Virus record (IMG/VR): IMGVR_UViG_3300025115_000059
Span: 1-21,739 of that record
Length of the DNA: 21,739 bases
Reading direction: 5' to 3' (one strand)
From: a virus
The notes below the pieces were generated by a model. That model saw only the letters and a program-made list of their open reading frames with translations. It did no database searches and was not told where the DNA came from. This document shows positions 314-21,018 of this stretch, in pieces. Position numbers and translations under genes: made by a program. Position 1 is the stretch's first letter; every line of letters starts with the position of its first letter.

Positions 314-3300
314 TGGAAAACACCACTCTGTCTCAGGCACCAGAGGTGCCCATTCCTGAAGGACAAGTTGTTGCCACCAATCCTATTGATGTTGGTGTTG
401 CCGACATTCAGTCGTTTAGTTTGGACGAACAACTTGTGGACAAAACACAGCCCACCATTAGTCAGGAAGCCTTTCCCATTGTAGAAACCACCCCTGAGAT
501 GGTGGCCTATTCGTATGCAGCGATGGACTTTGCTGCTCCTCCTGAGTATGTTGCCCAAAGCATGAGTAGGTATGTTAGTCCTAGTGGGGCCACCACTGAT
601 TTGGCACAAGGCATTGTTCAATCGGAGTTGCGTGCTCTTAAGAACGATTTTGGCAGTGCCACATCTTCTGGCAATGTTGATTTGTCAGCAATGTTTGTTG
701 AAGCCTACAAACAACAAGAACAATTGGCTAAAAACATTAGTGCTGCTAAAGCAATGTCCATTGTCACCACCAAGGCTGTTGAAAACACTGCCACTGCCAC
801 TCCCTCTGCTGTTGAGAACAACTCAATTGAGCATTTGGCTAAAGTGGCTAAGGAACAGGGACACAACGCTGCTAGGGCCATATTGTTGGAACAGCGTGTT
901 AAGGCCAAGTATGGGAGTGCTGTAAGCACCACTGAGGCTGTGGGTAGTTTGGTGGCTGCTGTTGGTGGTGTGATTTTGGCTGGTGTTGCAAACCCCTTGT
1001 TGGGTTTGGCTGCTGGTGCAGCACTGTCTGTGAACGCAATTGCCGATCAGAAAGCATTTAGAGATGCCATTAAGAAGCACACTGGCATAGACGCCAAAGA
1101 AGTGTGGGGCATTACGGACACTCTGGAGAAATACAATAGGCTGTTAGCCACATTGCCAACTGAGCAAGCACTTGCAATTGACAGCAAAGTGTTGGACGAC
1201 ATCATTGCCAATAGTGATCGCATTCCATTTCTAGGGAAGGTGTTTGCAGCAGGTAATGCTGCAAGTTTGCATGTAGGCGTACATAGTGCTCCCGGCCTAG
1301 ACATCAGTGCTCGTACACGTGATTGGTTGGATGGCATCGGTGTTGCAGGTGATGTTATTGGTGCTCTCAAATATGTTAAGTATGTGGGTAGTCCTGCCAA
1401 GAGTTTGGAAGTTGCTGCTGGTGGAGATGCTGTTGGAAGGCAAGTGGCCTCTGACATTGCGGCTGGTAAGAACACCCTCAATGTGCCTGAAGCACAACAA
1501 ATTGAGTGGAGTTTGTCTAACAACTTTGAACAAATAATTCCTGAAGGAGTGAGTGGAACTGCTGGCAGTGTTCAAAAAATCCTCATGGAGAACACGAAGA
1601 AGTTGTTGGAAGACCTTGACAGTCGTATTGCTCTAACCGGAGACAAACAGCTTCAGGATGTGCGTACATTTGTAGCCCATCACTTTGAACAGGCTCCCAC
1701 CTCAATTGCCAAATATGATTCGGCAACAGGTGAACTAATTTTACAACATCCGGGTAGGGCTGCTCCTTTCACCAGTGAGGAAACTGCACGTGCCTTTGCA
1801 GATAGGTTGGAGAAAGAAACTGGTTGGAAACTAGAAGTTAAGCCCACTAACTCCCCTTCTCGCCCACTCATCTCGATTGATGATGTGGATGACTACATTC
1901 CTGAGTCGGCGTTTGCTCGCGTTAAAGTTGAGAACGCAGAGTTGGCGAATGTTGTTTCAACGGGGGGTACGGCTAGGGAAGCATTGTATGCCATCCAATC
2001 GTCGTCTAAGAACGACGCAATGAAAGGACTGGCTGAAAGACTCCTCAACAACAAGCAACTCAATTTGGATGCTGTTCCTATAACTAGCATTAGCGACTTT
2101 GAAAAGAAAGCTGCTGGTAGCAAGGTGGCAGGACTCTACCGCTATTTGGAAGACACCATTGGCATTGATGCTGTACGACGTATCCCGTCTGAAGCCACAG
2201 TTGTACATGAAATTTTACACAGTGCTACTAGCCAAATTATTGATGCAGTGTTGTTGGCAGGTAAGAAAGTTGGTAAAGCATCAATTAGCGCAGTACATGT
2301 GTCTCCAGAACAACGCTTTGCTGTTAAGGCGTTGGATAAGGTGTATAAGGCACTTGCCAACAGCAACATCAAGCTCGCGTTTATGGACGGCAAGCACTCC
2401 ATTGATGATATTCGTGGCCTTGGGTTGGACGCTGCCGCACTCTCAGAACACAAGGACTTTGCCAAATATTATGGATTCACCAACATCCATGAGATGATTG
2501 CAGAAGCCACAACCAACAAAGACTTTGCTCGTGTTCTTAAGAACATTCCAATTGGTCGCATCATTAAAGACGACACTGTGTTGGAGATGCTCGGTGGTAA
2601 GGTGAGGACTGTGTGGGACGCACTTGTAAACACATGGCGTAAGATGTTGGGTGTTAAAGAAGGTGCTGAAGCGTCTGCACTAGATGTCGTTATAGAAAAC
2701 ACCATGAAACTGGTGGATAATGCTACTGAAGGACAACGCACCTACTTCAAGCAACTGGCTGATAAGAAACTACTCACTGAAGCAGACTTTGAAAATGTTA
2801 GAGGTGCTGCCGCATCCTCCACTCTATCTCATGGCTACTATGTCCATCTAGCTCCGTCGTCTCGTCAGATGCACAGTGCAGAAGACATTGCAACACGGTA
2901 TGGCGGTGGTCTTGATCCTAAGCACCAAGCCTCTATGGAGAGTATGCATGAGCGATTTGTAGCGCTGTTGCAAGAACAGCGTGATAAGAAGCTGCTGTCC
3001 AATTACATCTCCACCACCATCGGTAAGCTCAACAAGGCTGAGTTTCAGAAGGTGAATAAGGTGCTAATGGAAGGAGACACTGTAGGTAAGGAATTTAATG
3101 ACATGGAGTTGTTTGCTCGTGGCATTAAGAGTGACAAAGAAAAGGTTGCCTACTATGCTTTCCGTACCTTAGAAAACATTAGCCTACGCATTAAAAACCA
3201 ACACATTGTTAAACAACTGTCTCGTGATGGATGGAGTCAGGGATATGTTAGTGTTGGTGGTAAAACAATTACAACCCCAGTGTCACAACTAAACGCTACA

Positions 3301-5862
3301 CAATATGTCGGTAAGAAGGCATACAACATCTCCACTGGACAATGGGACACTCTAAAAGGTAGTGAGTCCAATTTGTTCCGTACCCGCAATGCCATTGATG
3401 TTGGTGGAGAAGATGCCACCATGTTCTTAAGAACGGGAGACGATGTTAAAATTGGTGGTTGGGTACAACAACTCCCAATGCTTCCCGGCTCCTATCGTCG
3501 TATTTACAACCAAGACTACTTTGGTAGGGTGGTGGTTAGTAAGAAGGTGAACGGAGAGATGGTGGAGGACACTCTTCACATGCGCACGTCCAATAGTGGT
3601 AGGGACATGGTGAAGTGGTCTGAGGGAATGAACAACATTCTAAAACAAGTGAAGGGCAATCCTTCTGCGGTTAGTTTGCGCTACATTGAAGAACAAGTGG
3701 GGCAGTGGGAAGATGCTTCTAAAGTTCTTAAGAGCATTCAAGATGGTGAGTGGGACAACTATAAAGTGGGCAGTTTCAATCACCACTATGACAGAGATAG
3801 TGACAACTACATTACGTCCCTAACTAAAGCTGCGTCCGATTCATTCGATTTTGAACGTAGAGCACGAGGCATTAAGTTGGAATCCATCGACCATGTGGAT
3901 AACACCCTGTCTCCTATGGATGCACTTGGATCGGAGTTGTCCAACATTAGCCGTATTCGTAATGTGGCAGAATGGAGAGACAAGTGGGTGGATGTTTGGT
4001 GGAACACCTTTAAGGACACCATTGATGTAGACTTTGTTCGTGGACGTAGGCCAATTGAAGTGATTAGTGATGCCAACTTTACACAAAGCATGTACACTGG
4101 TGGACTCAATGCAGCTAAGTTTGCTGAGAGTCAGCGCAAATACATTTTGCAACAACTGGGTGCTCAAACACTTAGTGAGCGCACTATAGAAGCCACCATG
4201 CGGCGTCTTACGTTCAATCACCTGACCAAGTATGTTAAGTTGCCGCTCATGGACGAACCTGTGCATTTGGGACATGCCATTCGCAGCTTTGACCCAATTC
4301 AGTTTGCCCGTAGCTTCAACTTCCACACCATGCTTGGTGCATTCAACCCTGCTCAACTCATTGTGCAGAGTCAGGCAATGGTGAACATTGTAGCCGTCAG
4401 CCCAGTTCACGGCATGAAGTCTGCATTGTCTATGCCCGTAATTCGCACTGCCCTTATGAGTGATAATGAGAAGGTTTGGCGCACATTGGCAACCACGTCT
4501 GGACTGTCTGGAGATGAGTTTGTCAGTGTTGTAAAATCCATTCGTCGTAGTGGCCTCATTGATGGCATTGGTGCAACCTCCCTACATAACGTAGAGGCTG
4601 GAGCATTCAATATGTTCAATGGGGTTGCTGGAAAGGTGTCTGGTAGCGGTGCTGCATTCTTCAACAGAGGTGAGGAAGCTGCTCGTATCACTGCGTTTGA
4701 AACTGCCCGTAGGGAATGGATGGTGGCTAACAAAGGGGCTGATTGGACAACCAATGCCTCTATGGGTGCCATTTTAGCACGTGCAGACGACCTAACACAG
4801 AACATGTCTCGTGCCAACCTTGCGTTCTACCAACGTGGGTTGTGGAGTATTCCTGCTCAATATTTGCAATATAACATCAAACTTGCTGCCAACATCATTA
4901 GTAGTTTCTTACAACAAGGTGCAGGTAGGGGCTTTACACGTGGGGAAGCAAGCCGCATTATGGGTGCCCACCTCCTTGCCTATGGTGCTGCTGGCAACGG
5001 GTTGATGATGTTCTATGACGAAATTGCAGGTGGATATGAACAGGCCACTGGACAAAAACTGTCTGAAGAACAGAAGTTGGCTATTGTGGAGGGTGGATTT
5101 GCATGGATGGCTGATGCAATGTCTCAAGCACTCACTGGTGAAGAAATGAAACTAGGCTTAGGAAAGCGCCTAGGTACATTCAACTGGTATAACGAAATTC
5201 TTGAGGCCGCTGTAAACTCCGATGCTGCATGGTGGGAAGCCGCCTTGGGTGCTAGTGCCACCATTCCTAAGAAAATTGGTAGCCTAAAATACTTGGCTGA
5301 TCCGTTCACAACAGGTGATTTGTCTCCAGAAGCGTTCTTGTCTGCCACTAACAAAGTTCTTAAGAACACTTTCTCAAGCTGGAACAACGCCACTAAGGCA
5401 GTTTATGCAATGAACAATCAGGGACGTATGGTGAGCAATCAGGGCACCATTATGGCTAATGCCACAACTCCTGAAACATTTGCACAAGCTGTTGGTATGC
5501 CTCCTGCTGAAGTGACTGCTTGGTATAGGTGGATGGCAAGTGAGAAAGACTTGCGCAATGCTACTAAGGATTTTGCTAAGGAGTATATGCGTCTTGATGA
5601 AATTAGAGTGGACTTGTTACGTGAGACAGGGGGTGTTTATAATGAACGCATTAACGAATATACGAAGGCACAAGCTGCCCTGTATAAGAGTGTCCCTGTA
5701 GGAATGCAAGACACTTTCGACGCAGAACGCAAACGTATTTGGGCACTACGTAATAGCGAAACAGGTAAGCCTCGTCTTGTTGAGAAATACATTGAGCTAC
5801 TGGACAAGGGTGCTAAGGCTAAGGATGCCCCTCTAATTAAAAACTATGGTGTGGAGAACTAA
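313..5862 (+). CDS. Giant (1849 aa) putative internal virion / DNA-ejection protein with HExxH motif
   Basis: This is a single open frame of 1849 codons starting at the ATG that overlaps the previous stop. Residues about 211-240 form a Gly/Ala-rich hydrophobic stretch (GGVILAGVANPLLGL) that could insert into a membrane. Residues 632-636 read HEILH within a hydrophobic context (TVVHEILHSATS), the zinc-binding HExxH signature of metallopeptidases. The rest is mostly mixed helical sequence without a domain I can name. Size, location and the 726-residue neighbour fit the ejection proteins of T7-like phages (gp15/gp16), the largest of which carry an enzyme domain, often a lytic transglycosylase. 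I see no clear transglycosylase motif here. A protease-bearing ejection or tail protein is the best inference. Four copies and one variant of the palindrome family lie inside this gene. It ends directly next to the following ATG. Confidence 0.75.
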   Translation: MENTTLSQAPEVPIPEGQVVATNPIDVGVADIQSFSLDEQLVDKTQPTISQEAFPIVETTPEMVAYSYAAMDFAAPPEYVAQSMSRYVSPSGATTDLAQGIVQSELRALKNDFGSATSSGNVDLSAMFVEAYKQQEQLAKNISAAKAMSIVTTKAVENTATATPSAVENNSIEHLAKVAKEQGHNAARAILLEQRVKAKYGSAVSTTEAVGSLVAAVGGVILAGVANPLLGLAAGAALSVNAIADQKAFRDAIKKHTGIDAKEVWGITDTLEKYNRLLATLPTEQALAIDSKVLDDIIANSDRIPFLGKVFAAGNAASLHVGVHSAPGLDISARTRDWLDGIGVAGDVIGALKYVKYVGSPAKSLEVAAGGDAVGRQVASDIAAGKNTLNVPEAQQIEWSLSNNFEQIIPEGVSGTAGSVQKILMENTKKLLEDLDSRIALTGDKQLQDVRTFVAHHFEQAPTSIAKYDSATGELILQHPGRAAPFTSEETARAFADRLEKETGWKLEVKPTNSPSRPLISIDDVDDYIPESAFARVKVENAELANVVSTGGTAREALYAIQSSSKNDAMKGLAERLLNNKQLNLDAVPITSISDFEKKAAGSKVAGLYRYLEDTIGIDAVRRIPSEATVVHEILHSATSQIIDAVLLAGKKVGKASISAVHVSPEQRFAVKALDKVYKALANSNIKLAFMDGKHSIDDIRGLGLDAAALSEHKDFAKYYGFTNIHEMIAEATTNKDFARVLKNIPIGRIIKDDTVLEMLGGKVRTVWDALVNTWRKMLGVKEGAEASALDVVIENTMKLVDNATEGQRTYFKQLADKKLLTEADFENVRGAAASSTLSHGYYVHLAPSSRQMHSAEDIATRYGGGLDPKHQASMESMHERFVALLQEQRDKKLLSNYISTTIGKLNKAEFQKVNKVLMEGDTVGKEFNDMELFARGIKSDKEKVAYYAFRTLENISLRIKNQHIVKQLSRDGWSQGYVSVGGKTITTPVSQLNATQYVGKKAYNISTGQWDTLKGSESNLFRTRNAIDVGGEDATMFLRTGDDVKIGGWVQQLPMLPGSYRRIYNQDYFGRVVVSKKVNGEMVEDTLHMRTSNSGRDMVKWSEGMNNILKQVKGNPSAVSLRYIEEQVGQWEDASKVLKSIQDGEWDNYKVGSFNHHYDRDSDNYITSLTKAASDSFDFERRARGIKLESIDHVDNTLSPMDALGSELSNISRIRNVAEWRDKWVDVWWNTFKDTIDVDFVRGRRPIEVISDANFTQSMYTGGLNAAKFAESQRKYILQQLGAQTLSERTIEATMRRLTFNHLTKYVKLPLMDEPVHLGHAIRSFDPIQFARSFNFHTMLGAFNPAQLIVQSQAMVNIVAVSPVHGMKSALSMPVIRTALMSDNEKVWRTLATTSGLSGDEFVSVVKSIRRSGLIDGIGATSLHNVEAGAFNMFNGVAGKVSGSGAAFFNRGEEAARITAFETARREWMVANKGADWTTNASMGAILARADDLTQNMSRANLAFYQRGLWSIPAQYLQYNIKLAANIISSFLQQGAGRGFTRGEASRIMGAHLLAYGAAGNGLMMFYDEIAGGYEQATGQKLSEEQKLAIVEGGFAWMADAMSQALTGEEMKLGLGKRLGTFNWYNEILEAAVNSDAAWWEAALGASATIPKKIGSLKYLADPFTTGDLSPEAFLSATNKVLKNTFSSWNNATKAVYAMNNQGRMVSNQGTIMANATTPETFAQAVGMPPAEVTAWYRWMASEKDLRNATKDFAKEYMRLDEIRVDLLRETGGVYNERINEYTKAQAALYKSVPVGMQDTFDAERKRIWALRNSETGKPRLVEKYIELLDKGAKAKDAPLIKNYGVEN
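634..645. repeat. Palindrome family, 1 mismatch (GCTCTTAAGAAC)
   Basis: Member of the GTTCTTAAGAAC family inside the 1849-codon gene, read as A-L-K-N. Confidence 0.75.
2533..2544. repeat. Palindrome family, exact copy (GTTCTTAAGAAC)
   Basis: Exact 12-bp palindrome inside the 1849-codon gene, read as V-L-K-N. Confidence 0.9.
3423..3434. repeat. Palindrome family, exact copy
   Basis: Exact palindrome in the 1849-codon gene but in a shifted codon register, giving F-L-R-T. This shows that the DNA, not the peptide, is conserved. Confidence 0.9.
3724..3735. repeat. Palindrome family, 1 mismatch (GTTCTTAAGAGC)
   Basis: Read as V-L-K-S; only 301 bases from the previous copy, the closest pair in the window. 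Confidence 0.75.
5356..5367. repeat. Palindrome family, exact copy
   Basis: Near the 3' end of the 1849-codon gene, read as V-L-K-N. Confidence 0.9.
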
Positions 5863-8043
5863 ATGGCTAAAGAAAAAGCTGGATGGATGGCTAGGAATAT
5901 CGGCGAAGCAGACACTCCTGTTGCTCCCAACTTCGGACTCATTGAACAGGCGGGTGCCCATAGGGGCACTGCTGCCCGCATTGCGGGAGAGAGTGATGCT
6001 GCCACCATTAAGGCACTAGGGGAAATGGGTACCACTGCCTACCAAACCTACCAATATACAGAGAGTGCTAAAGAAGCCAGAGAGGTGATGGAGAGGCTGC
6101 AATCACCTACGTGGCAAGGCAAGAAGGCGTTTGAGGCAGAAGAAACTCTGCGAGGTGTTGACGCCCTTACGCTAGGTAATAAAAAACAAGCTCAAGAAGA
6201 GTTTGGGAAAATTGTAGACGCTGCTAAGAACGATGCCATTACTCCTGAACGTGCTCAAGCAGAACTTGCTGCTGCCATGCGTAAGCGCATTGCTGCCAAT
6301 CCCGGTGCTGCTGCCTCAATTCGTGCTGCTTACAACGAGTTTAGTGGACAAGGCAATTGGGACATTAGCGAAATGCAGCGTGCCTTTCAAAGTGGCAATG
6401 CTGCTGCTGATGAGCAGAAACGTCTGCTGGAACAGGCTAAAACAATCCCTGCTGGCTTTAGGGCCATTGTGAATGAGAAGGGCGAGACTGTGGGGGCATT
6501 CACTGATGCCGACTATGCACAGGCATTTAAAACACAGAGTGGCCCTGCATGGAACAGTGTGTTGTCCTACTACAACCACGAGAGACAGAAAGCAGGGTTG
6601 GTTGCACTAGAAACTGCCGCAAAGACTGAGGGCGTAGTGTCTGAACGACAAGCCATTGGTGTTAACAATGCCGTGTCTATCGGTAGAGAAGCAGCCATGC
6701 ACAGTGTGGACATTAAGTTTGCTGGACAGAGTTGGGAAGGACTTCCTCCAGACAAACTCGTTGAAGGAATGGCTACCTACCGCACCGAGATGCAAAACTC
6801 ATGGAGCAAGTTTAAAACACAGGCTCTTGAGCGCATCAATGCGGTGAAAGACCCCGTTGCTCAAGCTGCCATGATTAAGCACCTAGACGAACAAGACAAA
6901 CTTGCTAGAAGTCGCATTGATGGTATTACGAAGGACACAGGGGAGTTTTTGTCCCACATGCGTACAATGTCCTCAATCACCAATGACAAGGCACAGGGTG
7001 CTCTTGCCAATGCTCAAATGATGGACAAACTCATTGGGTTTGGTTTCACTAGCAGTGAGATTGATCGCATGAAGAATGAGAACGGTAGGCGTGAGATTTT
7101 GGAAAGCACCAAGAATGATCCTTCCAATCCCATGCGTAAGATGGTAGTGTATTTTGACCAGCTACGCACTGCTGTTGCGTCTGGTGACTTCAACCTGATG
7201 TCTTCTGCTATGATGGAAGGCAATAGGCTTCAGAAAATCACCACCACTGCTGACGCACTTGCTAAGGGTGAGAAAGTGGTTGATGGCAAACCAATTGATC
7301 CCACTGATCCAGACACCATTGCTGCTGTTAAGCTACGTGAGGAACGTGCTGCACAGGCTGCTAAGAAGGATGTTGTAGACTTGTCAGACAAGGATGTGGT
7401 GGCTTTACGTGAAACCGCTCCAGACCTGTCCGACAAAGAGTCGTCCATTGACAGCTTCCTAGCCTTCTTCAGGAGTGGGAAGATTGATAAGGTGGATAAG
7501 GGTAATGCTGAATTCATCCGTACCAACGTAGCCAATCGTATGCAACAGTGGCTTATGGGTGATGAACAAGTGCACTATCCTGCACGTCTTGCAACCGTTC
7601 TTAAGAACAATCAAATGCAAGTTGATGCGTCAGGCAATCTCACCATTAAGGTTGGAAGAAATAAATGGAACCAAGCAGGAGATGCTGCTAGGTTGGTGTC
7701 TCGTGCCAACAAGATGTTGGAGTTGGCTAGTGCTGCAAGTGGCATTGATAAGAAAGAATTGGCTCAACAAGTGTTGGAAAAAACAAAATCCTATTCGCCA
7801 GCCAAGCAAGGAGACACCTTCAGTGCTTCCTTCACTGAGGAAGACATTATGCGTATGGGGCCAGAAACAGCCAAGGCATCATTGCGCAAGATGGGAGTTC
7901 CTTCTCAATACATTGACGCCATTGTGAAGGACATGGAAGCCACACGACAATCTGCCACTAAGGTGGAGCAGCCTAAGAAAGAACCAGTGTTCGGTGGGGT
8001 TAAGTGGGGAGACACACGTGGCTCGCAAAAAGCCGGTGGTTAA
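5863..8043 (+). CDS. Putative internal virion protein, 726 aa, Ala-rich and helical
   Basis: The ATG follows the upstream TAA with no gap, and the GGAG in the upstream 3' end supplies a ribosome binding site. The 726 residues are rich in Ala, Lys, Glu and Gln, with no Cys in the stretches read, no signal peptide and no membrane segment. Long stretches look like helices or coiled coil. I recognise no catalytic motif. By size (T7 gp15 is about 747 residues) and position beside a giant protein, it is a candidate core/ejection structural protein; this is inference from synteny. Codon usage matches the neighbouring late genes. An exact copy of the palindrome lies at 7597-7608. The last 26 bases overlap the next small gene. 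Confidence 0.65.
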   Translation: MAKEKAGWMARNIGEADTPVAPNFGLIEQAGAHRGTAARIAGESDAATIKALGEMGTTAYQTYQYTESAKEAREVMERLQSPTWQGKKAFEAEETLRGVDALTLGNKKQAQEEFGKIVDAAKNDAITPERAQAELAAAMRKRIAANPGAAASIRAAYNEFSGQGNWDISEMQRAFQSGNAAADEQKRLLEQAKTIPAGFRAIVNEKGETVGAFTDADYAQAFKTQSGPAWNSVLSYYNHERQKAGLVALETAAKTEGVVSERQAIGVNNAVSIGREAAMHSVDIKFAGQSWEGLPPDKLVEGMATYRTEMQNSWSKFKTQALERINAVKDPVAQAAMIKHLDEQDKLARSRIDGITKDTGEFLSHMRTMSSITNDKAQGALANAQMMDKLIGFGFTSSEIDRMKNENGRREILESTKNDPSNPMRKMVVYFDQLRTAVASGDFNLMSSAMMEGNRLQKITTTADALAKGEKVVDGKPIDPTDPDTIAAVKLREERAAQAAKKDVVDLSDKDVVALRETAPDLSDKESSIDSFLAFFRSGKIDKVDKGNAEFIRTNVANRMQQWLMGDEQVHYPARLATVLKNNQMQVDASGNLTIKVGRNKWNQAGDAARLVSRANKMLELASAASGIDKKELAQQVLEKTKSYSPAKQGDTFSASFTEEDIMRMGPETAKASLRKMGVPSQYIDAIVKDMEATRQSATKVEQPKKEPVFGGVKWGDTRGSQKAGG
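7597..7608. repeat. Palindrome family, exact copy
   Basis: In the 726-codon gene, read as V-L-K-N. Confidence 0.9.
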
Positions 8044-8251
8044 ATTCCTCTACCCTTCAATTCCTGTAATGGAATTGGAGAAGGGGGAGCAATACACCTT
8101 GTTTCATCGACGTGTTGACAAAGTTGATTTGCCACATGACGACAATAACGAAGAGTGTTGGTGCTCCCCCATTGTTATGCGGGATTCAGATGTCCCGCCC
8201 GACTACACATACAAAGACTACATTGCTATTGTTGCAACATCTGTACACTGA
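8018..8251 (+). CDS. Small hypothetical protein (77 aa), last gene of the late operon
   Basis: I chose the GTG at 8018 because GGGGAG lies six bases upstream and the product then begins MARKKPVVKF, a typical small-protein start. An in-frame GTG at 7994 would add eight residues but lacks a good binding site. The product is soluble, contains a CWC pair at about residues 48-50 and ends in a short hydrophobic stretch (YIAIVATSVH). No family is recognised. It overlaps the 3' end of the 726-residue gene by 26 bases. Its own 3' end overlaps the convergent - strand gene by 26 bases. It is the final + strand gene before the terminator at 8327. Confidence 0.6.
   Translation: MARKKPVVKFLYPSIPVMELEKGEQYTLFHRRVDKVDLPHDDNNEECWCSPIVMRDSDVPPDYTYKDYIAIVATSVH
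8058..8077 (+). other. Perfect 7-bp hairpin just after the 726-aa gene
   Basis: CAATTCC (8058-8064) and GGAATTG (8071-8077) pair perfectly around a six-base loop, 15 bases after the stop of the ejection-protein gene and inside the next small gene. There is no T run, so it is not an intrinsic terminator. It could be an mRNA stability or processing hairpin. The function is inferred only. Confidence 0.35.
8083..8170. repeat. 9-bp inverted repeat with 70-bp spacer
   Basis: GGGGGAGCA at 8083-8091 is the exact reverse complement of TGCTCCCCC at 8162-8170. Both arms are inside the 77-codon gene near the end of the late transcript. They could close a long-range RNA stem around the coding region, or the match could be chance. 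Confidence 0.3.
8179..8198. other. GC-rich hairpin downstream of the - strand operon end
   Basis: GCGGGA (8179-8184) pairs with TCCCGC (8193-8198) across an eight-base loop. On the - strand it lies about 28 bases past the last stop codon (8226), where a transcript end is expected. No T run follows, so it would be at most a weak or factor-assisted end signal. Confidence 0.3.
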
Positions 8252-8393
8252 ATCCTTCTAATGATAGTAGTCGATGTCCATACATTGACAACAACCATCG
8301 ACGAGCAGCATTACGTGCTTCTTCATAACTGCTGAATGTGTTCTTAAGAACCTTCGGCAGTTTTTTATTTGTGCGTTTAATTGTGTAGGTCAT
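8226..8393 (-). CDS. Small basic hypothetical protein (55 aa), last gene of the - strand operon
   Basis: ATG at 8393 has a strong binding site, AAGGAG at 8401-8406, seven bases upstream. The start overlaps the preceding gene's stop as ATGA, which strongly supports translation. The product begins MTYTIKRTNKKLPKVLKN, is Lys/Arg-rich in its first 35 residues (EEARNAARRWLL follows) and turns hydrophobic near the end. It has one likely amphipathic helix and no recognised family. The VLKN codons are the palindrome at 8340-8351. The gene encloses the + strand terminator on the opposite strand, and its last 26 bases overlap the end of the late operon. Confidence 0.65.
   Translation of the reverse strand: MTYTIKRTNKKLPKVLKNTFSSYEEARNAARRWLLSMYGHRLLSLEGFSVQMLQQ
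8327..8366 (+). terminator. Intrinsic terminator of the late (+) operon
   Basis: AACTGCTGAA (8327-8336) pairs with TTCGGCAGTT (8353-8362) with a single T-G wobble, followed by six T residues at 8361-8366. The 16-base loop contains an exact copy of the 12-bp palindrome (8340-8351), so the loop can itself fold into a second hairpin. It acts in the + direction, 75 bases after the last late gene. It lies antisense inside the last - strand gene, so the same DNA is both terminator and codons. Confidence 0.75.
8340..8351. repeat. Palindrome family, exact copy in terminator loop
   Basis: Exact copy in the loop of the + strand terminator and, on the - strand, V-L-K-N codons of the 55-residue protein. 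Confidence 0.9.
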
Positions 8394-8596
8394 TTCCAAT
8401 CTCCTTGTTGTTCCCTAATGCGTCCTTTAAGTGCTTCGCAATAGACAGCAGCATCGCAAAGCTCCTCCTGTAAATGCTGTATCCAATCCAGAATGTCTAG
8501 GTCGGTACGCATTGTTGTTGTGCCATACTTATTTAGCCCAACCAAACTCCTGTTGTGCAACATCTTCATCACCTTCTGCACGTTTAAGTCTTCCAC
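8390..8596 (-). CDS. Small conserved-looking hypothetical protein (about 68 aa)
   Basis: The core reads VGLNKYGTTTMRTDLDILDW followed by IQHLQEELCDAAVYCEALKG. This compact helical pattern with an EExxD-like acidic motif superficially resembles the metal-binding helix of MazG-like pyrophosphohydrolases. I would not assign that activity. The start is ambiguous. GTG at 8596 sits nine bases after AAGGAGG, a TTG at 8602 is three bases after it, and an ATG at about 8563 follows AAGGTG with good spacing. The stop overlaps the next gene as ATGA. The 5' part overlaps the upstream gene in another frame by about 68 bases. Confidence 0.6.
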   Translation of the reverse strand: MEDLNVQKVMKMLHNRSLVGLNKYGTTTMRTDLDILDWIQHLQEELCDAAVYCEALKGRIREQQGDWK

Positions 8597-8976: not shown

Positions 8977-8989
8977 TGTGTTCTCCTTA

Positions 8990-11220: not shown

Positions 11221-11636
11221 TGCTTACCCCTTTCACTAGTTGTTTTCTTCTTGTGACACGTCTTACACAAGATTTGTAAGTTGGATGCAGGACAATAGAG
11301 ACGATTGATGTAGGTGTCCCAATTGACAAACCCCTCAGACAAACTCACCACAGGATCAATGTGGTCTACGTCCACTTCTGTAGCAGGGAAAAACTTGCCA
11401 CAACTAGCACATTCATAATGTGATGCTTCCCTATTTGTGCGTTTGTTTTTCCTCTTGCCAACATATGCGTTCTTAAGAGCAGCAAACTTGTTAGGAAACT
11501 TCCTGAACGCTGCCCTCAGTGCGCTTGTTACGAATGCCCGCATCCTTCCGTCTGTCCAATGATCGACTGTTGACATTATTGTGGAAGGGGGCTTTTGCCC
11601 ACCAACTGTTTTTCTTACTCTTGGTTTTCGTTCCAT
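11112..11636 (-). CDS. HNH endonuclease (174 aa)
   Basis: This is probably a free-standing, homing-type HNH nuclease. C76-x2-C79 and C124-x2-C127 form the structural zinc site. D91-H92 in DVDHIDPV is the catalytic beta-beta-alpha core, followed by N119 in NLQILCKTCHKKKT. Residues about 25-56 (WTDGRMRAFVTSALRAAFRK) match the helical N-terminal part common to phage HNH proteins. The ATG is preceded by CAGGAG. The natural domain ends near residue 136. The remaining Ser/Thr/Lys-rich tail (SPPKRKPTTTGRSPS) is encoded over the start of the 59-codon gene, so an original stop may have been lost. A palindrome variant at 11469-11480 lies inside. Confidence 0.88.
   Translation of the reverse strand: MERKPRVRKTVGGQKPPSTIMSTVDHWTDGRMRAFVTSALRAAFRKFPNKFAALKNAYVGKRKNKRTNREASHYECASCGKFFPATEVDVDHIDPVVSLSEGFVNWDTYINRLYCPASNLQILCKTCHKKKTTSERGKQCLTNTTAEKETSPPKRKPTTTGRSPSLRKCVKKKE
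11469..11480. repeat. Palindrome family, 1 mismatch
   Basis: In the HNH gene, read as A-L-K-N. Its presence in a likely mobile gene suggests long residence or site capture. Confidence 0.75.
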
Positions 11637-11665
11637 TGCTGTTAAACTCCTGCATGTGTGGGTAT

Positions 11666-12179: not shown

Positions 12180-12925
12180 TCTTCGTCTCCTTTAACAAGA
12201 ACAGCCCAACTCTCAGGATACAACACTTTCATCTCTTTGTCAAGCATTTTTGCCACAATTTGTGTTTCTTGTTGAGAATGCTTGTCAAGTCGCAAGTTGC
12301 ACACCCTAGCAAAAGCATACAAACTTCCACTCCAAATCCACTCCGTCATAGTGTTTTGAGGCAACACCATGCGTGCTTGTTCAGGACACACTTGTAGCTC
12401 AAGTAAGGCACTATACGTATTAAGACACTTTTCTACGACTTCTTCAGGGAACAGCACACAATTCATGTCAACTTCCATGTCCTGAATGGGAGACAAATCC
12501 ACCACTCCATCTCCGCTACCTTGCTTCTTATTGTACGCTCGCTCTCTCCACTCATTCGGGAAATAAAACTCAGGCTCACTGTCCACATAACGCCGACTCA
12601 CTTCATTCCATGCCAACCCCACTTGATGCTTAACAAGCTGTCGTGCTACGAAGACGGGGGCTTTAATGCGGAAAGATGCGAAGGCATGACTGAAAGGACT
12701 CCAATGATTGTGTGTTGCCAAATAGCGTAGCAGCTTTTTGTCTGCCCCACTCATCTGCATGATGTATTTGCGATTGGTGACATTCCCTTCATCATCAAAC
12801 CACTCCTGAACGCCAACAACGTCAGGCTTACTAGCCTTATCAAAACTCACTCGTGCTGCATTAACAACACTCCAATCATCTCCCATGTGGTCGAGATGTG
12901 TCACCTGCATGTCTGCTGTATTCAT
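12176..12925 (-). CDS. thyX: Flavin-dependent thymidylate synthase
   Basis: ThyX methylates dUMP to dTMP with methylenetetrahydrofolate and FAD. The 249 residues include HNHWSPFSHAFASFRIKAPV, then RQLVKHQVGLAWNEVSRRY at about residues 95-113, then CPEQARMVLPQNTMTEWIWS and a C-terminal helix, all in the ThyX order. The signature region differs from the textbook RHR(X)7S: residues 99-101 are K-H-Q and one more residue separates them from S110. This appears to be a phage-type variant and need not mean inactivity. The start overlaps the sigma gene stop as ATGA with AAGGAG eight bases upstream. Together with nrdJ it lets the phage make its own dTMP. Confidence 0.93.
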   Translation of the reverse strand: MNTADMQVTHLDHMGDDWSVVNAARVSFDKASKPDVVGVQEWFDDEGNVTNRKYIMQMSGADKKLLRYLATHNHWSPFSHAFASFRIKAPVFVARQLVKHQVGLAWNEVSRRYVDSEPEFYFPNEWRERAYNKKQGSGDGVVDLSPIQDMEVDMNCVLFPEEVVEKCLNTYSALLELQVCPEQARMVLPQNTMTEWIWSGSLYAFARVCNLRLDKHSQQETQIVAKMLDKEMKVLYPESWAVLVKGDEE

Positions 12926-13338
12926 TTCAACTTTCTCCTTGCTCTAACTAAGTTGGTTCGATTGCGAGGTACAACACCTTCCATCTTGTCTAGCAATGCA
13001 TCATACTCTGCTGGTGTTAGTTGCTCCATCAGTTCTGCATATTGCCTACCACTAGCTAACAACTCTGGTGTGGTGTCGTCTGCTAAGTCAAACACATCCA
13101 CGTCGCTGTCAATGTCTGGTGCACTCTTCTTCTGCCAATTGATTAGTATGTTTTTAGCAATGGTGTACACCCATGTGTTGAAGGCTACGCTGTGGTCAAA
13201 CTTATCTAGGTGTTCAAATGCTCTTAAGAACGCCTCTTGTACTGCATCTTCTCCTTCTTCTCCCCGCTTATGCACAGCATATCTAACCAACCTACTTCGA
13301 TAGATGTTTGCCAACTCTTCAAATTCCTTCGGAGTCAT
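12922..13338 (-). CDS. ECF-type RNA polymerase sigma factor (138 aa)
   Basis: Residues about 7-72 match sigma70 region 2. EDAVQEAFLRAFEHLDKF is the core-binding helix, and FNTWVYTIAKNILINWQKK is the -10 recognition helix with its conserved Trp and basic end. Residues about 101-138 (YAELMEQLTPAEYDALL, then RNRTNLVRARRKLK) fit region 4, the -35 binding helix-turn-helix ending in the usual RARRKL. At 138 residues it is short for an ECF factor (usually 160-200). The start follows a strong AGGAGG. It would direct host RNA polymerase to phage promoters, probably middle or late ones; the targets are unknown. A palindrome variant at 13220-13231 encodes part of region 2 in a shifted register. Confidence 0.85.
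   Translation of the reverse strand: MTPKEFEELANIYRSRLVRYAVHKRGEEGEDAVQEAFLRAFEHLDKFDHSVAFNTWVYTIAKNILINWQKKSAPDIDSDVDVFDLADDTTPELLASGRQYAELMEQLTPAEYDALLDKMEGVVPRNRTNLVRARRKLK
13220..13231. repeat. Palindrome family, 1 mismatch
   Basis: In the sigma-factor gene, in the shifted register (F-L-R-A of region 2). Confidence 0.75.
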
Positions 13339-14558: not shown

Positions 14559-15393
14559 TTGCTTCCTCCGTAATTTCAGGAACATTGGGTAGTTTTTCTA
14601 CCACGGTAAGCCACTCAACCCTACCCGCATAGGCAAATCCACGCAAAGAGGGGTAGCACGTTTTCTTAAATGCACAATAGGAACAAGTGGTACACAGCTT
14701 ACGATTGGGACTTGTTGCACTTTGTGGCACATCCTCCATTACGTCTTCTGGTGGCGCATCTTTCGACAGTGTTCCAATAGCTCTGGAGAGGCCGTATTCA
14801 AACGCATCAACGTCTGGAGAGAACGGGAAATAGTGAATGTGTCCGAGTTCCTTTTGAATTGTGAGGAATCCCATCTCGTCGCTCTTAAGAACATTGGCGT
14901 AGCCGTTGAGTTGTCCGAAATATCCGAAGGGGTCTTCTGTGAGGTGGTCATGGAATTTTCGTTCGCTTTGTTTTGTAACACTCTTCACGTCCACGACGCT
15001 GCCATCAATGATAGCATCAATACGACCACGAACACGCCAATCACCGCTAACATATTCCACCTCCTTCTGTTCGGCTTCCACGCAATGCCCTGCATCACGT
15101 GCAAGTTGCAACACCAACTCTTCCAACATGTCCCCATACAAAAACTTAATGCGTGTCACACTGGTGATGTCTTCACCAGCATCAGGTGTGTGATGCTTAA
15201 ACCACATACGACGCAAACAAGTTTCACCAAGTTCTGAGAAGTAAATTGTCTTGGGCTTACGCTCACGTGGCTCACGTTTCCCCATTTGCTTCACATAGGC
15301 ATTCGCCATGTTTGTAGAAAAAGCCGAGGTGGCAAGCCCCTCTGCCTTCCCCACTATGGCATGAATGTCATCAACCAAAGTGGAAACATTCAT
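14539..15393 (-). CDS. Cas4-like PD-(D/E)XK nuclease with Fe-S cluster motif (284 aa)
   Basis: This is probably a DNA exonuclease of the Cas4/RecB-like family. The catalytic core is visible: GDMLEE at 87-92, RGRIDAI with D126, D135-V-K137 (the DxK of PD-DxK), and Q161-x3-Y165 (QLNGYANVL). Four cysteines fit the 4Fe-4S pattern of Cas4 and AddB: C59 (GETCLRR), then C237-x2-C240-x5-C246 near the C-terminus, with an extra C234. No cas1, cas2 or CRISPR array is in the window, so this is a phage DNA-processing or recombination enzyme, not an adaptation module. The start follows the upstream TAA directly with GAGGGGG before it. A palindrome variant is at 14881-14892. Confidence 0.82.
   Translation of the reverse strand: MNVSTLVDDIHAIVGKAEGLATSAFSTNMANAYVKQMGKREPRERKPKTIYFSELGETCLRRMWFKHHTPDAGEDITSVTRIKFLYGDMLEELVLQLARDAGHCVEAEQKEVEYVSGDWRVRGRIDAIIDGSVVDVKSVTKQSERKFHDHLTEDPFGYFGQLNGYANVLKSDEMGFLTIQKELGHIHYFPFSPDVDAFEYGLSRAIGTLSKDAPPEDVMEDVPQSATSPNRKLCTTCSYCAFKKTCYPSLRGFAYAGRVEWLTVVEKLPNVPEITEEANEEQVD
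14881..14892. repeat. Palindrome family, 1 mismatch
   Basis: In the Cas4-like nuclease gene, read as V-L-K-S on the - strand. Confidence 0.75.
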
Positions 15394-16472: not shown

Positions 16473-16473
16473 T

Positions 16474-18426
16474 CTACTCTCCATATTTAGATAGCTCGAC
16501 TTCTTCTAAGTCTTGCCAGTTCTTCCCTACACTACAACCAACACTAAGTGTAACAGGCATCTCAATGTTGTAGTAGTGGTTGATGAAGGCGGTTGTGTTC
16601 TTAAGAATAGTGTAGCACGCTTTGATAAACTTGTCAAGTATTTCTTTCTTACAGTCGAAAACAATTGAGTCGTGAACAGTCATTACAGGAACAACATGCT
16701 CTGACAACCCACTCTTGTACAACTTCTCAACTATAAGGCCCACCATGTGAGGAACCACATCACCTGTTGCAAACCCCTGCACAGGCCAATTCTTCAACTC
16801 AGTGGGGCTAAAGCTAACACCTCCTTTCCAATCGTTGTCATACTCTGTAAACACATAGCGACGACCTGTGGGCATTATCTTGGTGTACACACCTACAGGA
16901 AGGCCCTTAATGCTGCGTTTGGACGACAATGTTCGTCCCTTGGATGCCTCCTCCATAATTGATTCGTGAAACGCGCCTACGCCCTTATAGCGGCTGTAAA
17001 ACACCTTGATGAATTTCTTAGCTTCTGCCACACTACAACCAGCATTCTCTGCCAATGTTTTAGGGCCAGCACCATACACCAGCCCAAAAGACAATCGCTT
17101 AAACCACTTACGCTCATCCTTGGTGCATGCTCTGCCATACATTCCTTTGAACAACTCTGTGTGCATGTCAACACCATTGTTAATGTCATCAGCAAGCTGA
17201 GAGTCGTCTGCAATGGCTGCAAGCCCTGCCATTTCAAGTTGGCTGTAGTCAAAATCAACTAGGCGTCCTTCATCTCCCCACCTGCTAATGTAGGCTGCTT
17301 TAATTCCTCCTTCAACTGTTTGGTTTTGGATGTTGGGTTTGTTACAAGATAGCCGCCCTGTTTTGGTGGAGCAGTGTTGCAGGTTGGGATGGATGCGGTT
17401 GTCGAGGAACGTAAGAGAGCGCATGTTTTCATAGTAGGTTTCACGTTGTTTACTCCAAGTGCGTAAATTGAGAATGGATGTTGCAATGCCTAGTTTGTCC
17501 TTGATGTTCTTAAGAACCGACTCATCGACAGTGAAATAGCCCATCTTTGTAGGAGAGGCACCACACTTAACTGGGTCATACCCAAGCCCATCAGCTACAT
17601 ATTCAACATCTACAGTTTTAAACTTGTCCTTTCCATTCTTATACTTCCCTACAAGGTGTTTCTCACGAACCACATACTTCCCACCAAACAACAAACAGCT
17701 AACGTCTTTAGGACTACTCCACTGCCAAGAAGGATAGGCAGGAGGAAGAACACCAACAACAGATGATGATAGTAGTTCTTCCTCTACATCAATTTGCTCC
17801 TTCAACACCTCACTCTGCCTCTCAACATACCCAACATCAATGTGCATGCCATTGAGTTCCATGATGGTTGTAGCAACAAGAGCACGACACTGGCTGGTCA
17901 CAAGTTGTGACATGTTGTTCTTAGACACTAGTGGTTGTTGTGCTTCGTAAATGAGTAGTGTGTTGTTAATGTCTCCTTGTAAATAGTCTGCCAGCATGTC
18001 AATGGGAATGTCTTCTGTTTGAACACCTGCTTTCCAAAACTCCTTAATGCGATCATCCTTAAGAACACCACCATACTTCTCACTCAATTCATCCAGTGAT
18101 GGGTAGGTGTGCTGTTGCCCAGACAACAAATACTCAACAAGCTGTGTGTCCCAAACTGTTTTGCTAACAAGTTCTTTCTGAGTAATCCAGTTGTTAACAA
18201 GCAGGTAGAGTAGGTCAAATTTAATGTTGTGGCCAACCACTACATCATGCGCTTTCCACCATGCGAGGAAAGTTTCTTTTCCCAACGGGTTGTCCTCAAC
18301 AATGAGAGACACCTCACTGTTCTTCAGTCCGGCCAGCACTATCCGATTGTCCGGCCAGAACGGACTCGCTGGCATGCTGATGGGACTCCTTATTGTCGTC
18401 TCCAGATCGATTATTAGTGCCGTCAT
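16474..18426 (-). CDS. Family A (T7/Pol I type) DNA polymerase with 3'-5' exonuclease (650 aa)
   Basis: This is the replicative polymerase. The exonuclease motifs are D7-x-E9 (IIDLETT), N67-x3-D71 (GHNIKFDLLYL) and Y148-x3-D152 (YLQGDINN). The polymerase motifs are A, D393 in DFDYSQLE; B, R439-x3-K443-x3-F447 ending Y451-G; and C, H585-D586-S587 (TVHDSIVFD). Motif C has Ser where E. coli Pol I has Glu. I start at ATG 18426 because MTALIIDLETT places the first exonuclease motif at the N-terminus as in T7; a longer frame to 18546 only adds foreign sequence. The binding site is weak, so coupling to the overlapping Cys-rich gene is likely. It carries three copies or variants of the palindrome. 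Confidence 0.95.
   Translation of the reverse strand: MTALIIDLETTIRSPISMPASPFWPDNRIVLAGLKNSEVSLIVEDNPLGKETFLAWWKAHDVVVGHNIKFDLLYLLVNNWITQKELVSKTVWDTQLVEYLLSGQQHTYPSLDELSEKYGGVLKDDRIKEFWKAGVQTEDIPIDMLADYLQGDINNTLLIYEAQQPLVSKNNMSQLVTSQCRALVATTIMELNGMHIDVGYVERQSEVLKEQIDVEEELLSSSVVGVLPPAYPSWQWSSPKDVSCLLFGGKYVVREKHLVGKYKNGKDKFKTVDVEYVADGLGYDPVKCGASPTKMGYFTVDESVLKNIKDKLGIATSILNLRTWSKQRETYYENMRSLTFLDNRIHPNLQHCSTKTGRLSCNKPNIQNQTVEGGIKAAYISRWGDEGRLVDFDYSQLEMAGLAAIADDSQLADDINNGVDMHTELFKGMYGRACTKDERKWFKRLSFGLVYGAGPKTLAENAGCSVAEAKKFIKVFYSRYKGVGAFHESIMEEASKGRTLSSKRSIKGLPVGVYTKIMPTGRRYVFTEYDNDWKGGVSFSPTELKNWPVQGFATGDVVPHMVGLIVEKLYKSGLSEHVVPVMTVHDSIVFDCKKEILDKFIKACYTILKNTTAFINHYYNIEMPVTLSVGCSVGKNWQDLEEVELSKYGE
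16597..16608. repeat. Palindrome family, 1 mismatch (GTTCTTAAGAAT)
   Basis: Near the 3' end of the polymerase gene, read as I-L-K-N. Confidence 0.75.
17506..17517. repeat. Palindrome family, exact copy
   Basis: In the polymerase gene, read as V-L-K-N. Confidence 0.9.
18055..18066. repeat. Palindrome family, 2 mismatches (ATCCTTAAGAAC)
   Basis: In the polymerase gene, read as V-L-K-D; the weakest member listed. Confidence 0.5.
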
Positions 18427-18565: not shown

Positions 18566-19815
18566 TAGTATGTCCCCACATATCGTGCAATTGAGGGTTC
18601 AATGGTCACTTCAAACTTTCCATGACGCAATGTTTCGTCTGTCTTGTCACCACCGTACAGCTTGTTCTTAGGAACGTTAATGTAGCGAGTGTATTCGTGC
18701 TCTCCCTTACCGATTGTTACAATGGCATCTGCCTCACCAATCTTGTCTGTCTTACTGCCACGTAGTTGCGCCATGTTAATCCAGTGTTGGTTTTCACCAC
18801 TACCATCCACCTGACTAACAGCAATGACAGGGCCATACTTCTTAGCCAACTCTCGTGCCCACTCATACAGCTTGCCAATGCGGAGGTCTTCACGTTCCAT
18901 CTTACCAAACCCACTCACTTTGTCAAGCTGGTCAAACACAATGAGGCATGGATTGTATTCATCGAACAATGCTGACAGCTTCCTCACATCGTTCATTCCC
19001 TTGTCGTCATTTGTCACCAACACTTTCCCACCGGCCATACTCTTAAACACTTCTTCATAGTGAGCAATGTCTGCATCAATTTCTGCATTGGTAACACCAA
19101 AATAACTCTGCACAATTCGATACATCACCTTATCACTGCTCTCTTCATTATTCACCCAAATAACTGGACGATCATCTGTAATTTGTCCTACGAAATTACT
19201 CACCTCACTAGCCACCATTGTTGTCTTGCCAGTTTCAGGACGTGCTGCAATGATGATGAAGTCCCCTTGGCGAATGGGGCCAAGACTGACATTGAGTTCG
19301 TTGAGACGCCAATTAAATCCACTACTCCCTACAGCCTTACGAATGTACGACAAATCAGTTGAAACAAAGAGATCGTCTTTGGAAACGCTTCTTCCAATTT
19401 CTCGATTGTATTGATGCACCATGTTTGCAATGTCTTCAAGAGAGGCTTCCTCCTTATCGTGTACAACATCCAAGGCTTTATTCATAATGAGAGTGGCGTA
19501 GTCTTTCGTAATGTAGTTCTTAAGAACATCCTCAACAACAATGCTATCCGCATCTTCTGTTTCAATGTTGGAGAACAACTTCTCATAAATTGTGTGACTT
19601 GCTTCCTTCATGTCCTTGGTGTGGAGCATGAAGAAAAACCGTTTAAACTCTGCTACATCAACACTCTCATGGTCGGGATAGGAACGATAGTATTTACCCA
19701 ACGCTTGAATGACACGCCAGCTTTCCTTGCTAACACTGTGTTCTTTTACAAATGGAGACAAGCGAGTATACAAACTCTTGTCTAGTAGTTTTTTAATGAG
19801 GACAACATCATACAT
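18565..19815 (-). CDS. DnaB-like replicative helicase (416 aa)
   Basis: This is an ATP-dependent DNA unwinding motor of the RecA-fold DnaB/T7 gp4 C-terminal class. Walker A is AARPETGKTTM with K197 and T198, matching the RP-x-x-GKT form of DnaB. Walker B is LIVFDQLDKV with D295. AVSQVDGSG and QLRGSKTDKIGEADAIVTIG match the later DnaB motifs. The N-terminal 150 residues are helical and would contact the primase or the neighbouring subunit. ATG 19815 follows AAGGA by seven bases. The gene overlaps the primase stop by eight bases. In T7 primase and helicase are fused; here they are separate adjacent genes. An exact palindrome copy is at 19516-19527. Confidence 0.92.
   Translation of the reverse strand: MYDVVLIKKLLDKSLYTRLSPFVKEHSVSKESWRVIQALGKYYRSYPDHESVDVAEFKRFFFMLHTKDMKEASHTIYEKLFSNIETEDADSIVVEDVLKNYITKDYATLIMNKALDVVHDKEEASLEDIANMVHQYNREIGRSVSKDDLFVSTDLSYIRKAVGSSGFNWRLNELNVSLGPIRQGDFIIIAARPETGKTTMVASEVSNFVGQITDDRPVIWVNNEESSDKVMYRIVQSYFGVTNAEIDADIAHYEEVFKSMAGGKVLVTNDDKGMNDVRKLSALFDEYNPCLIVFDQLDKVSGFGKMEREDLRIGKLYEWARELAKKYGPVIAVSQVDGSGENQHWINMAQLRGSKTDKIGEADAIVTIGKGEHEYTRYINVPKNKLYGGDKTDETLRHGKFEVTIEPSIARYVGTY
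18664..18675. repeat. Palindrome family, 1 mismatch (GTTCTTAGGAAC)
   Basis: In the helicase gene, read as V-P-K-N on the - strand. The change keeps the flanks but breaks the central CTTAAG. Confidence 0.7.
19516..19527. repeat. Palindrome family, exact copy
   Basis: In the helicase gene, read as V-L-K-N. Confidence 0.9.
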
Positions 19816-20632
19816 CTGCAATTCCTTTCAAGTAGGACAATGGTAGTTCTTTAGGCTGCTGGTTCACCATCACGTCACAACGCATTAGCGAGTGTAGCTG
19901 CCTATCAACTTCAAATGCTCCAACCTTCCCTGCTTCATCATCATCAAGCCATATTAGTGCCTCACTGTAGTTGTTAAACACATACACAATGTGGTCTTCC
20001 CTAATTTTAGTACCCATTAGACACACCACATCACACCCTGCCTTGTGCAATTTATAGCTGGACACAAGGTCTTCCACAAGTATAACACGCTTATTACGCT
20101 TGTCAAGCTGCACTTGTTTGCTAATTTGATCTGGATGGGACATCCATGTTAAATATTTGGGCTTCCTGTTAAACCCCCTCCCTTGGTAGTTGGAAGTGGA
20201 AGCACGTAACATTAGCCTACCTGTTTCAGCACTCCATCTAACCCCATATGTGTAGGCATCTTCTTGTTCCAACTCATACCCCATCCACCAGATGCGGGCT
20301 TCAATGGGCCAGTCCACCATATCCCTATACCCGTTCAACCACACTCCTTCTGCACCGGCGTCTGTGACAGCAACAGCTGGTTCAAACCATTCCTTTGTAG
20401 TGTGCAACTCATCTGCTCTTCTAATGTAGTCGGGTGTTCTTAAGAACCCCGTACTCCCACAATGGTGACAATAGAACAACCACCCATCACCGTTGTTTTT
20501 TACGTACAGCCTGTGCTTGTGGTCGCTTCCCGCTGGACACTCGTCGTGATTTAGCTTGTGTTGTTTCCCCACCTCCATCGGCAGGTCGGACACAATGGTT
20601 TGCATCTCGTGCTTCGACAACATGTTGTGCAT
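19808..20632 (-). CDS. DNA primase with zinc-binding and TOPRIM domains (274 aa)
   Basis: The primase makes RNA primers for lagging-strand synthesis. C32 with nearby His residues, and C55-x2-C58 (FYCHHCGSTG), form a zinc-binding domain like that of T7 gp4. The TOPRIM domain shows E187 (VILVEDLVSSYKLHKAG) and D230-D231-D232 (IWLDDDEAGK), the metal-binding catalytic acids. I chose ATG 20632 because GAGGA lies just upstream; an in-frame TTG 33 bases earlier is possible. The length fits the N-terminal half of a T7-type primase-helicase. An exact palindrome copy at 20436-20447 encodes GFLRTP just after the zinc motif, in the shifted register. Confidence 0.9.
   Translation of the reverse strand: MHNMLSKHEMQTIVSDLPMEVGKQHKLNHDECPAGSDHKHRLYVKNNGDGWLFYCHHCGSTGFLRTPDYIRRADELHTTKEWFEPAVAVTDAGAEGVWLNGYRDMVDWPIEARIWWMGYELEQEDAYTYGVRWSAETGRLMLRASTSNYQGRGFNRKPKYLTWMSHPDQISKQVQLDKRNKRVILVEDLVSSYKLHKAGCDVVCLMGTKIREDHIVYVFNNYSEALIWLDDDEAGKVGAFEVDRQLHSLMRCDVMVNQQPKELPLSYLKGIADV
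20436..20447. repeat. Palindrome family, exact copy
   Basis: In the primase gene right after the zinc motif, in the shifted register (F-L-R-T). Confidence 0.9.
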
Positions 20633-20822
20633 GTTTTCCTCGCTGTTTGGGATAGAGTTGAACAACTACAGGACACCTATATTTACTAATGGCAACACTA
20701 CAATCTGAATACATTTCATTCAGTGGGCCTTCTGCCTTACGTCTGTCACAGAAGTTGGTGCACACCTCCAAGAAGCGCCTGTGTCCAACAACCTCACAAT
20801 AGATGATGGGTCGTTCAATCAT
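20487..20822 (-). CDS. Cys-rich hypothetical protein (111 aa) overlapping the primase start
   Basis: ATG 20822 has GGAGGT five bases upstream, one of the best binding sites in the window. The first 63 or so residues (MIERPIIYCEVVGHRRFLEV, VCTNFCDRRKAEGP, YSDCSVAISKYRCPVVV) contain five cysteines and may bind zinc. The last 48 residues are basic and low in complexity and are encoded over the first 146 bases of the primase gene in another frame. The N-terminal part looks like the functional domain. No family is recognised. The start overlaps the preceding stop by eight bases. Confidence 0.6.
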   Translation of the reverse strand: MIERPIIYCEVVGHRRFLEVCTNFCDRRKAEGPLNEMYSDCSVAISKYRCPVVVQLYPKQRGKHAQHVVEARDANHCVRPADGGGETTQAKSRRVSSGKRPQAQAVRKKQR

Positions 20823-21018
20823 CTTTCACCTCCACTTCCTGCCATGCAGGTAGGTGTACAACATTTCCATCTTTGTCATGGCAGTAGGAATACATTCCAT
20901 CAATGTGGTGAAACAACACCCACTCACCTTTCTCAACAGGGCGAGCATCCGGTGGTGCAATTGCATCCTCAATTGGCCTCACCCAACTGTTCCTAAGAAC
21001 ATTGTACAGTTTCATCAT
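20815..21018 (-). CDS. Small hypothetical protein (66-67 aa)
   Basis: Two adjacent ATG codons (21018 and 21015) follow GGAG at three and six bases; the first overlaps the upstream stop as ATGA. The product (MKLYNVLRNSWVRPIEDA, EKGEWVLFHHIDGMYSYCHD, HLPAWQEVEV) looks like a small beta-rich domain in which a DGMYSYCHDKDGN turn presents charged residues. No family is recognised. A palindrome variant at 20989-21000 encodes NVLRNS close to the start. Confidence 0.62.
   Translation of the reverse strand: MMKLYNVLRNSWVRPIEDAIAPPDARPVEKGEWVLFHHIDGMYSYCHDKDGNVVHLPAWQEVEVKDD
20989..21000. repeat. Palindrome family, 1 mismatch (GTTCCTAAGAAC)
   Basis: Near the start of the 67-codon gene, read as V-L-R-N on the - strand. 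Confidence 0.7.

Follow-up and report, generated by a model that had tools for sequence, protein, structure and literature searches.

Arrays of cognate sites that extend over a whole phage genome have been described chiefly as the sites of temperate-phage repressors. The P1 C1 operators, the conserved inverted repeats of phiC31, and the sop sites of N15 are all cases in which many dispersed sites are served by one phage or plasmid protein. Perhaps the closest described arrays are the stoperators of cluster A mycobacteriophages (L5, Bxb1), in which 20 to 30 short sites per genome are read by one phage protein; these are asymmetric 13-mers that bind a monomer, follow the direction of transcription, and sit in the short intergenic spaces of temperate phages (PMC6550527, PMC9283540). 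A different arrangement is offered by the Noc-binding sites of bacteria, which are dispersed, orientation-free palindromes that load their protein over most of the chromosome (PMC4331003). Specificity in ParB/Noc is reported to be switched by a few residues (PMC7383237).

Here, we analyzed a dispersed palindrome in a 21.7-kb IMG/VR fragment of an uncultured podovirus (the whole stretch of DNA under study, referred to below as the window) and in its relatives, and we describe an early-protein family, for which we coin the name RSAKSV, as the candidate reader. Like the stoperators, the sites are spread in large number through the genome, vary by clade in a manner that tracks a protein, and include a site beside that protein's own gene. 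Unlike the stoperators, they are palindromic (and therefore carry no orientation), intragenic, and evenly spaced, and no integrase above the family cutoff was seen in 13 records that carry them. Stoperators are read by a two-domain helix-turn-helix repressor; RSAKSV gave no profile or fold match, although a missing match does not exclude such a protein. The sites share with those of Noc and SlmA the character of dispersed palindromes without orientation, but the latter lie on the bacterial chromosome, at about 70 sites in megabases of DNA, and Noc belongs to the ParB family. None of 13 motif-bearing records encodes a ParB_N (CTPase) domain, which argues that RSAKSV is not a Noc/ParB member, and Pfam returned no ParB match for 40 RSAKSV sequences.

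The palindrome and its copies in the window

The window encodes a phage internal virion protein followed, on the opposite strand, by genes for a probable ribonucleotide reductase, an HNH nuclease, a sigma-region-2 protein, a phosphoesterase, a PD-(D/E)XK nuclease, a DNA polymerase, a helicase, and a primase. The contig does not include the early region upstream of the primase, and the window encodes no RSAKSV. Among cultivated phages, the nearest by polymerase belong to the Zobellviridae and infect Vibrio, ICP2 being an example (ca. 35% identity); a megablast search found no cultivated-phage match to the window at the DNA level. The sigma-region-2 protein (12922 to 13338, minus strand) is small, with an apparently shortened region 4, and has relatives in two related genomes (G004 and G009).

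The 12-bp palindrome GTTCTTAAGAAC occurs in eight exact copies in the window, where about 0.003 would be expected (0.0026 under an order-2 Markov model); its reversed sequence, used as a control, does not occur there. With nine further copies at one mismatch and one at two mismatches, the total is 18, compared with a mean of 0.95 such copies (maximum, 4) in dinucleotide shuffles of the window. The coordinates and mismatch classes of a preliminary description, made from this stretch alone, were correct for every copy. A second contig (IMGVR_UViG_3300010293_000138), whose polymerase is identical to that of the window over 243 residues, carries the same type of site as that at 8340, and the window sequence is thus no accident of assembly.

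The first ORF (313 to 5862) holds five copies: a one-mismatch copy, GCTCTTAAGAAC, at 634 to 645 (read as ALKN), exact copies at 2533 to 2544 (VLKN), 3423 to 3434 (FLRT), and 5356 to 5367, and a one-mismatch copy at 3724 to 3735. An exact copy follows at 7597 to 7608 in the next ORF (5863 to 8043). The exact copy at 8340 to 8351 had been placed in a terminator loop, but it is more than that, since it lies, again in the VLKN register, in a 57-amino-acid minus-strand ORF (8226 to 8399) that aligns at 52% identity with an 81-amino-acid ORF of G004; all 18 copies are therefore intragenic. Single one-mismatch copies are found in the gene read from its sequence as ribonucleotide reductase (10049 to 10060, in ORF 8990 to 10624; a position common to relatives), the HNH endonuclease gene (11469 to 11480), the sigma-factor-like gene (13220 to 13231), and the PD-(D/E)XK nuclease gene (14881 to 14892; common to seven records among the matches listed). 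The DNA polymerase gene has a one-mismatch copy at 16597 to 16608, an exact copy at 17506 to 17517 whose position is common to seven records, and the weak two-mismatch copy at 18055 to 18066. In the helicase gene, the copy at 18664 to 18675 (GTTCTTAGGAAC) has one mismatch to the window palindrome but is exact to the family-wide form, GTTNYTARNAAC, and its position is common to 11 records, while the exact copy at 19516 to 19527 is present as an identical 12-mer at the same place in eight records. The primase gene contains an exact copy in the FLRT register (20436 to 20447). The last copy, at 20989 to 21000 (GTTCCTAAGAAC), also has one mismatch and is exact to GTTNYTARNAAC.

Most sites read V/A-L-K-N/S, which raises the question of whether a preference for this peptide, or for its codons, simply generates the count. 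This explanation is refuted for the window, and we give it practically no weight. Synonymous codon shuffling within each gene yielded a mean of only 0.18 exact and 1.2 one-mismatch copies, whereas the shuffled genes actually contain 7 and 9, so codon usage does not account for the motif. Moreover, a second register (F-L-R-T/A) is in use, the encoded peptides change with the palindrome core in relatives, and third bases within sites are conserved above background (see below). The two codon registers noted in the preliminary description stand; its terminator loop does not.

Variation and spacing of the sites among relatives

In relatives that were recruited through their polymerase or helicase, the palindrome reads GTTCTTAAGAAC, GTTCCTAGGAAC, or GTTACTAGTAAC. 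Its extended consensus is TGTTCYTARGAACA, and the conserved site measures 12 to 14 bp. The middle of the palindrome is clade specific (CTTAAG, CCTAGG, ACTAGT, or CYRG), and the peptides encoded at the sites shift with it. Exact GTTNYTARNAAC was found 3 to 32 times in 15 of 16 relative records (0 to 2 times in the reversed control), whereas the cultivated Zobellviridae and other relatives lacking RSAKSV hold just 0 or 1 motif copy, with two further such relatives in agreement. At codons specifying the same residue, third-base identity was 75.5% inside the sites and 49.6% elsewhere. Together with the clade-specific variants, this bears out the earlier suggestion that selection acts on the DNA itself. 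Long records contain 11 to 44 sites, about one every 1 to 2 kb, compared with 18 in the 21.7 kb of the window. Some sites hold their position among close relatives, as in the helicase gene, but distant clades place theirs elsewhere, so that density is kept while positions turn over.

The copies in the window are spaced more evenly than chance would allow (coefficient of variation, 0.42 versus 0.93; P = 0.0005), and when 16 genomes were combined, the evenness was pronounced (Fisher P of ca. 1e-12); the background in these comparisons was the set of three-mismatch positions within the same genome. Taken individually, 6 of the 16 genomes lack even spacing at P < 0.11, and G006, G009, G035, and G056 show nothing of it. 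The sites occupy genes on both strands and, despite a weak pull toward intergenic DNA, are mostly intragenic in relatives as well. Site density is about twofold higher on the replication-gene strand in G004, G009, and G056 and even in the other genomes. Such a bias, like the genomes without even spacing, could be explained by a role in regulation. The 120 bp upstream of the RSAKSV start contain a site in 12 of 52 cases (10.6% expected; P = 0.007), a weak enrichment that is compatible with self-regulation.

Several other palindromes came to light during these counts. One 9,560-base fragment (G012, locus L028) has eight ATTAYTARTAAT palindromes where 0.5 would be expected, a form that a G-to-A change at position 1 would produce; this 9.6-kb fragment holds no RSAKSV for comparison. 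In the Methylophilales phages MEP401 and MEP402 (L141 and L144), CTAAAGCTTTAG-like palindromes number 22 to 23 at up to two mismatches, versus about 5, and are possibly a different dispersed motif. We considered GWCCTNNAGGWC in Vibrio phage VP41s3 as a second palindrome system and rejected it, as it is a repeat of one long gene (33.4 to 37.1 kb); the dense GGNCCN palindromes of this phage (L060, 33419 to 37105) come from that single repetitive gene, which resembles a collagen-type fiber gene, and serve as a warning for palindrome counts in general. In the open-access papers that we searched, we came across no description of such dispersed sites for this group of phages.

RSAKSV as the candidate reader

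The RSAKSV family (140 to 195 amino acids; consensus, MPxxWRSAKSV...DxxGxxxGK[ST]x[LVI](E/Q)) emerged from comparisons of gene content, and its distribution was tested in 28 complete or long genomes, 14 with the motif and 14 without. Of 115 families tested, it was the only one present in all 14 motif-bearing and none of the 14 motif-free genomes, counts that represent few independent events because the genomes are related. Families of antisense ORFs over the CobS/CobT-like genes (12 to 13 motif-bearing genomes, 0 motif-free) were set aside as shadows. A profile search recruited 80 IMG/VR loci by protein alone, and most of those long enough to scan yielded a GTTxYTARxAAC-type palindrome de novo; all 22 long records had 6 to 29 motif copies, versus 0 to 5 in the reversed control. 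Two long motif-bearing fragments lack RSAKSV (G020 and G024), but both stop before the part of the genome in which their relatives encode it.

In trees, motif and RSAKSV are found together on at least two unrelated terminase lineages and on a third, very long branch (G055), the terminase tree being a quick version. The helicase of G055 groups with those of motif-free phages, yet this genome encodes RSAKSV, and its top palindrome is GTTCTTAAGAAC (12 versus 1). In G035, a genome recruited through its terminase, RSAKSV is divergent and the palindrome is altered to GTTCCYRGGAAC (10 exact copies versus 0); all 11 GTTn6AAC sequences of this genome are of the motif type, and the 10 that read GTTCCYRGGAAC lack the TA center. 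Since G055 and G035 keep the pair, we conclude that protein and palindrome travel together and change together. Consistent with this, motif distances correlate with RSAKSV-core distances (Mantel r = 0.36; P = 0.008). Two paralogues each were seen in G009, G010, L066, L067, and L101.

Just 1 of 126 usable alignment columns separates the motif types completely, and this column, noticed after the fact and among related sequences, is Gln in 62 of 62 sequences from genomes of the A-containing type and Glu (15) or Ser (3) in all 18 of the C type. The types were defined by the base at motif position 4 (A at a frequency of 0.27 to 0.93 versus 0.00 to 0.08). The residue follows the invariant Gly of GK[ST]x[LVI](E/Q) by five positions and the invariant Lys89 by four, and it is Glu93 in the modeled protein (our column script numbered it 92, probably having skipped one insert residue), on a helix (residues 89 to 98; pLDDT of ca. 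90) that follows a hairpin. Both the G006/G029 group and the marine group, whose backbones are separate, have Gln, and Glu occurs also on a third backbone, that of G055. Pairing of Gln with adenine and of Glu with cytosine is established (PMC12264921).

The AlphaFold2 model is confident (mean pLDDT, 88.8) and all-helical apart from one hairpin. Foldseek and VIA-align picked out nothing convincing from the solved structures, and a sequence search picked out nothing, results that do not prove the fold to be new; the viral library BFVD matched uncharacterized phage proteins only, and fold and profile comparison detected no DNA-binding fold. Because the structure searches were unproductive in this way, we infer DNA binding by RSAKSV from the genetics and not from the fold. 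Searches of Pfam and PHROGs with 40 members gave scattered weak hits and no match, tblastn with five members found no credible relative in cultivated phages (weak hits to Haloarcula viruses had an E value of 0.7), and none was found in the bacterial genomes scanned.

Possible roles of the sites

From comparative sequence evidence of this kind, we consider it likely that RSAKSV binds the palindromes, and the broader proposal of the preliminary description, that they are recognition sites for a DNA-binding protein, is supported by a phage protein family that tracks both the presence and the sequence of the motif. Judging from the position of its gene, RSAKSV would be made early; the symmetry of the site suggests that it binds as a dimer. 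It would then occupy some 11 to 44 sites, scattered along the phage genome at mostly even intervals, with the residue after the GK[ST] turn probably reading motif position 4, Glu (or Ser) going with C and Gln with A or C. The exact sites of the window have C at position 4, and the missing early region of this phage should therefore encode an RSAKSV with Glu at the predicted specificity position. Such a protein would most likely serve to organize the chromosome of the phage or to mark it, whether by compacting it, tethering it, directing its segregation to packaging, or distinguishing phage from host DNA, with sites that work like those of Noc or SlmA and not like promoters. Whether the palindromes really serve organization or marking is, in our estimation, an evenly balanced matter, but of the functions originally suggested, that of a genome organizer fits best, and dispersed sites that are read by RSAKSV and organize or mark the phage chromosome make up the probable explanation as a whole.

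The main competitor, which we regard as unlikely, is that these are operator or stoperator-like sites, RSAKSV acting as a repressor, or as a roadblock to elongation, by which transcription is shut off genome-wide at some stage of infection. Cluster A mycobacteriophages also show such numbers of sites, clade motifs that track the protein, and a site near its own gene, and the denser sites among replication genes in three genomes, like the slight enrichment upstream of RSAKSV, are what one might expect of regulation. Against this, the window sites are palindromes without orientation, 18 of 18 within genes, where stoperators are asymmetric, oriented, and intergenic; control through promoters or terminators would not predict even spacing; and none of 13 motif-bearing records has an integrase above the family cutoff. 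It is for these reasons that we favor an organizing or marking role. Less likely still is that RSAKSV is a passenger and that the reader is another protein of the early or replication module (the SSB-like protein, the CobS/CobT-like ATPase complex, or the polymerase) or a host protein. Early and replication genes do travel together in most motif-bearing genomes. However, the SSB-like protein (14 motif-bearing genomes, 2 motif-free) fails as a reader because both ICP2 and VP41s3 encode it yet are motif free, and the CobS/CobT-like genes (13 and 1) fail in both directions, being present in motif-free ICP2 and missing from motif-bearing G065; PQ867845, in which CobS and CobT are annotated, likewise lacks both RSAKSV and the motif. 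Nearly every genome of either kind has the helicase and a member of the polymerase family, and a host factor would give no account of one RSAKSV residue matching one base.

Six-base palindromic cores distributed over the whole phage are also what a modification or nicking enzyme might target, or what a packaging or recombination signal might look like, and the preliminary description had listed a modification target with core CTTAAG and a packaging signal among its alternatives. We consider all of these very improbable. The enzyme target fits badly because selection covers 12 to 14 bp and the core itself changes between clades, and no methyltransferase or nuclease family among the 115 shows the 14/0 pattern; the packaging signal does so because the motif crosses unrelated terminase lineages.

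Organization or marking of the chromosome by RSAKSV, if true, would offer a way to ask whether lytic phages give their own DNA a structure or a label, and by what means. In this widespread, uncultured group, near-regular palindromes are maintained inside essential genes, and a single candidate reader from a new family can be named, together with a predicted specificity residue; the motif is also usable as a sequence tag by which uncultured contigs can be assigned to the group. A more ambitious picture, which we put forward tentatively and at somewhat less than even odds, is of a probably lytic podovirus group in which a protein of undescribed fold loads even sites 1 to 2 kb apart as the phage's own organizing or self-marking system, one that would have passed from one capsid lineage to another, unrelated one and would change its specificity by a single Glu/Gln switch. 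Sub-threshold tyrosine-recombinase hits were seen at G035:44860-45342 and G010:36020-36457 (L269 and L270, in frames of 365 and 337 amino acids), and these could mean that some members of the group are not strictly lytic.
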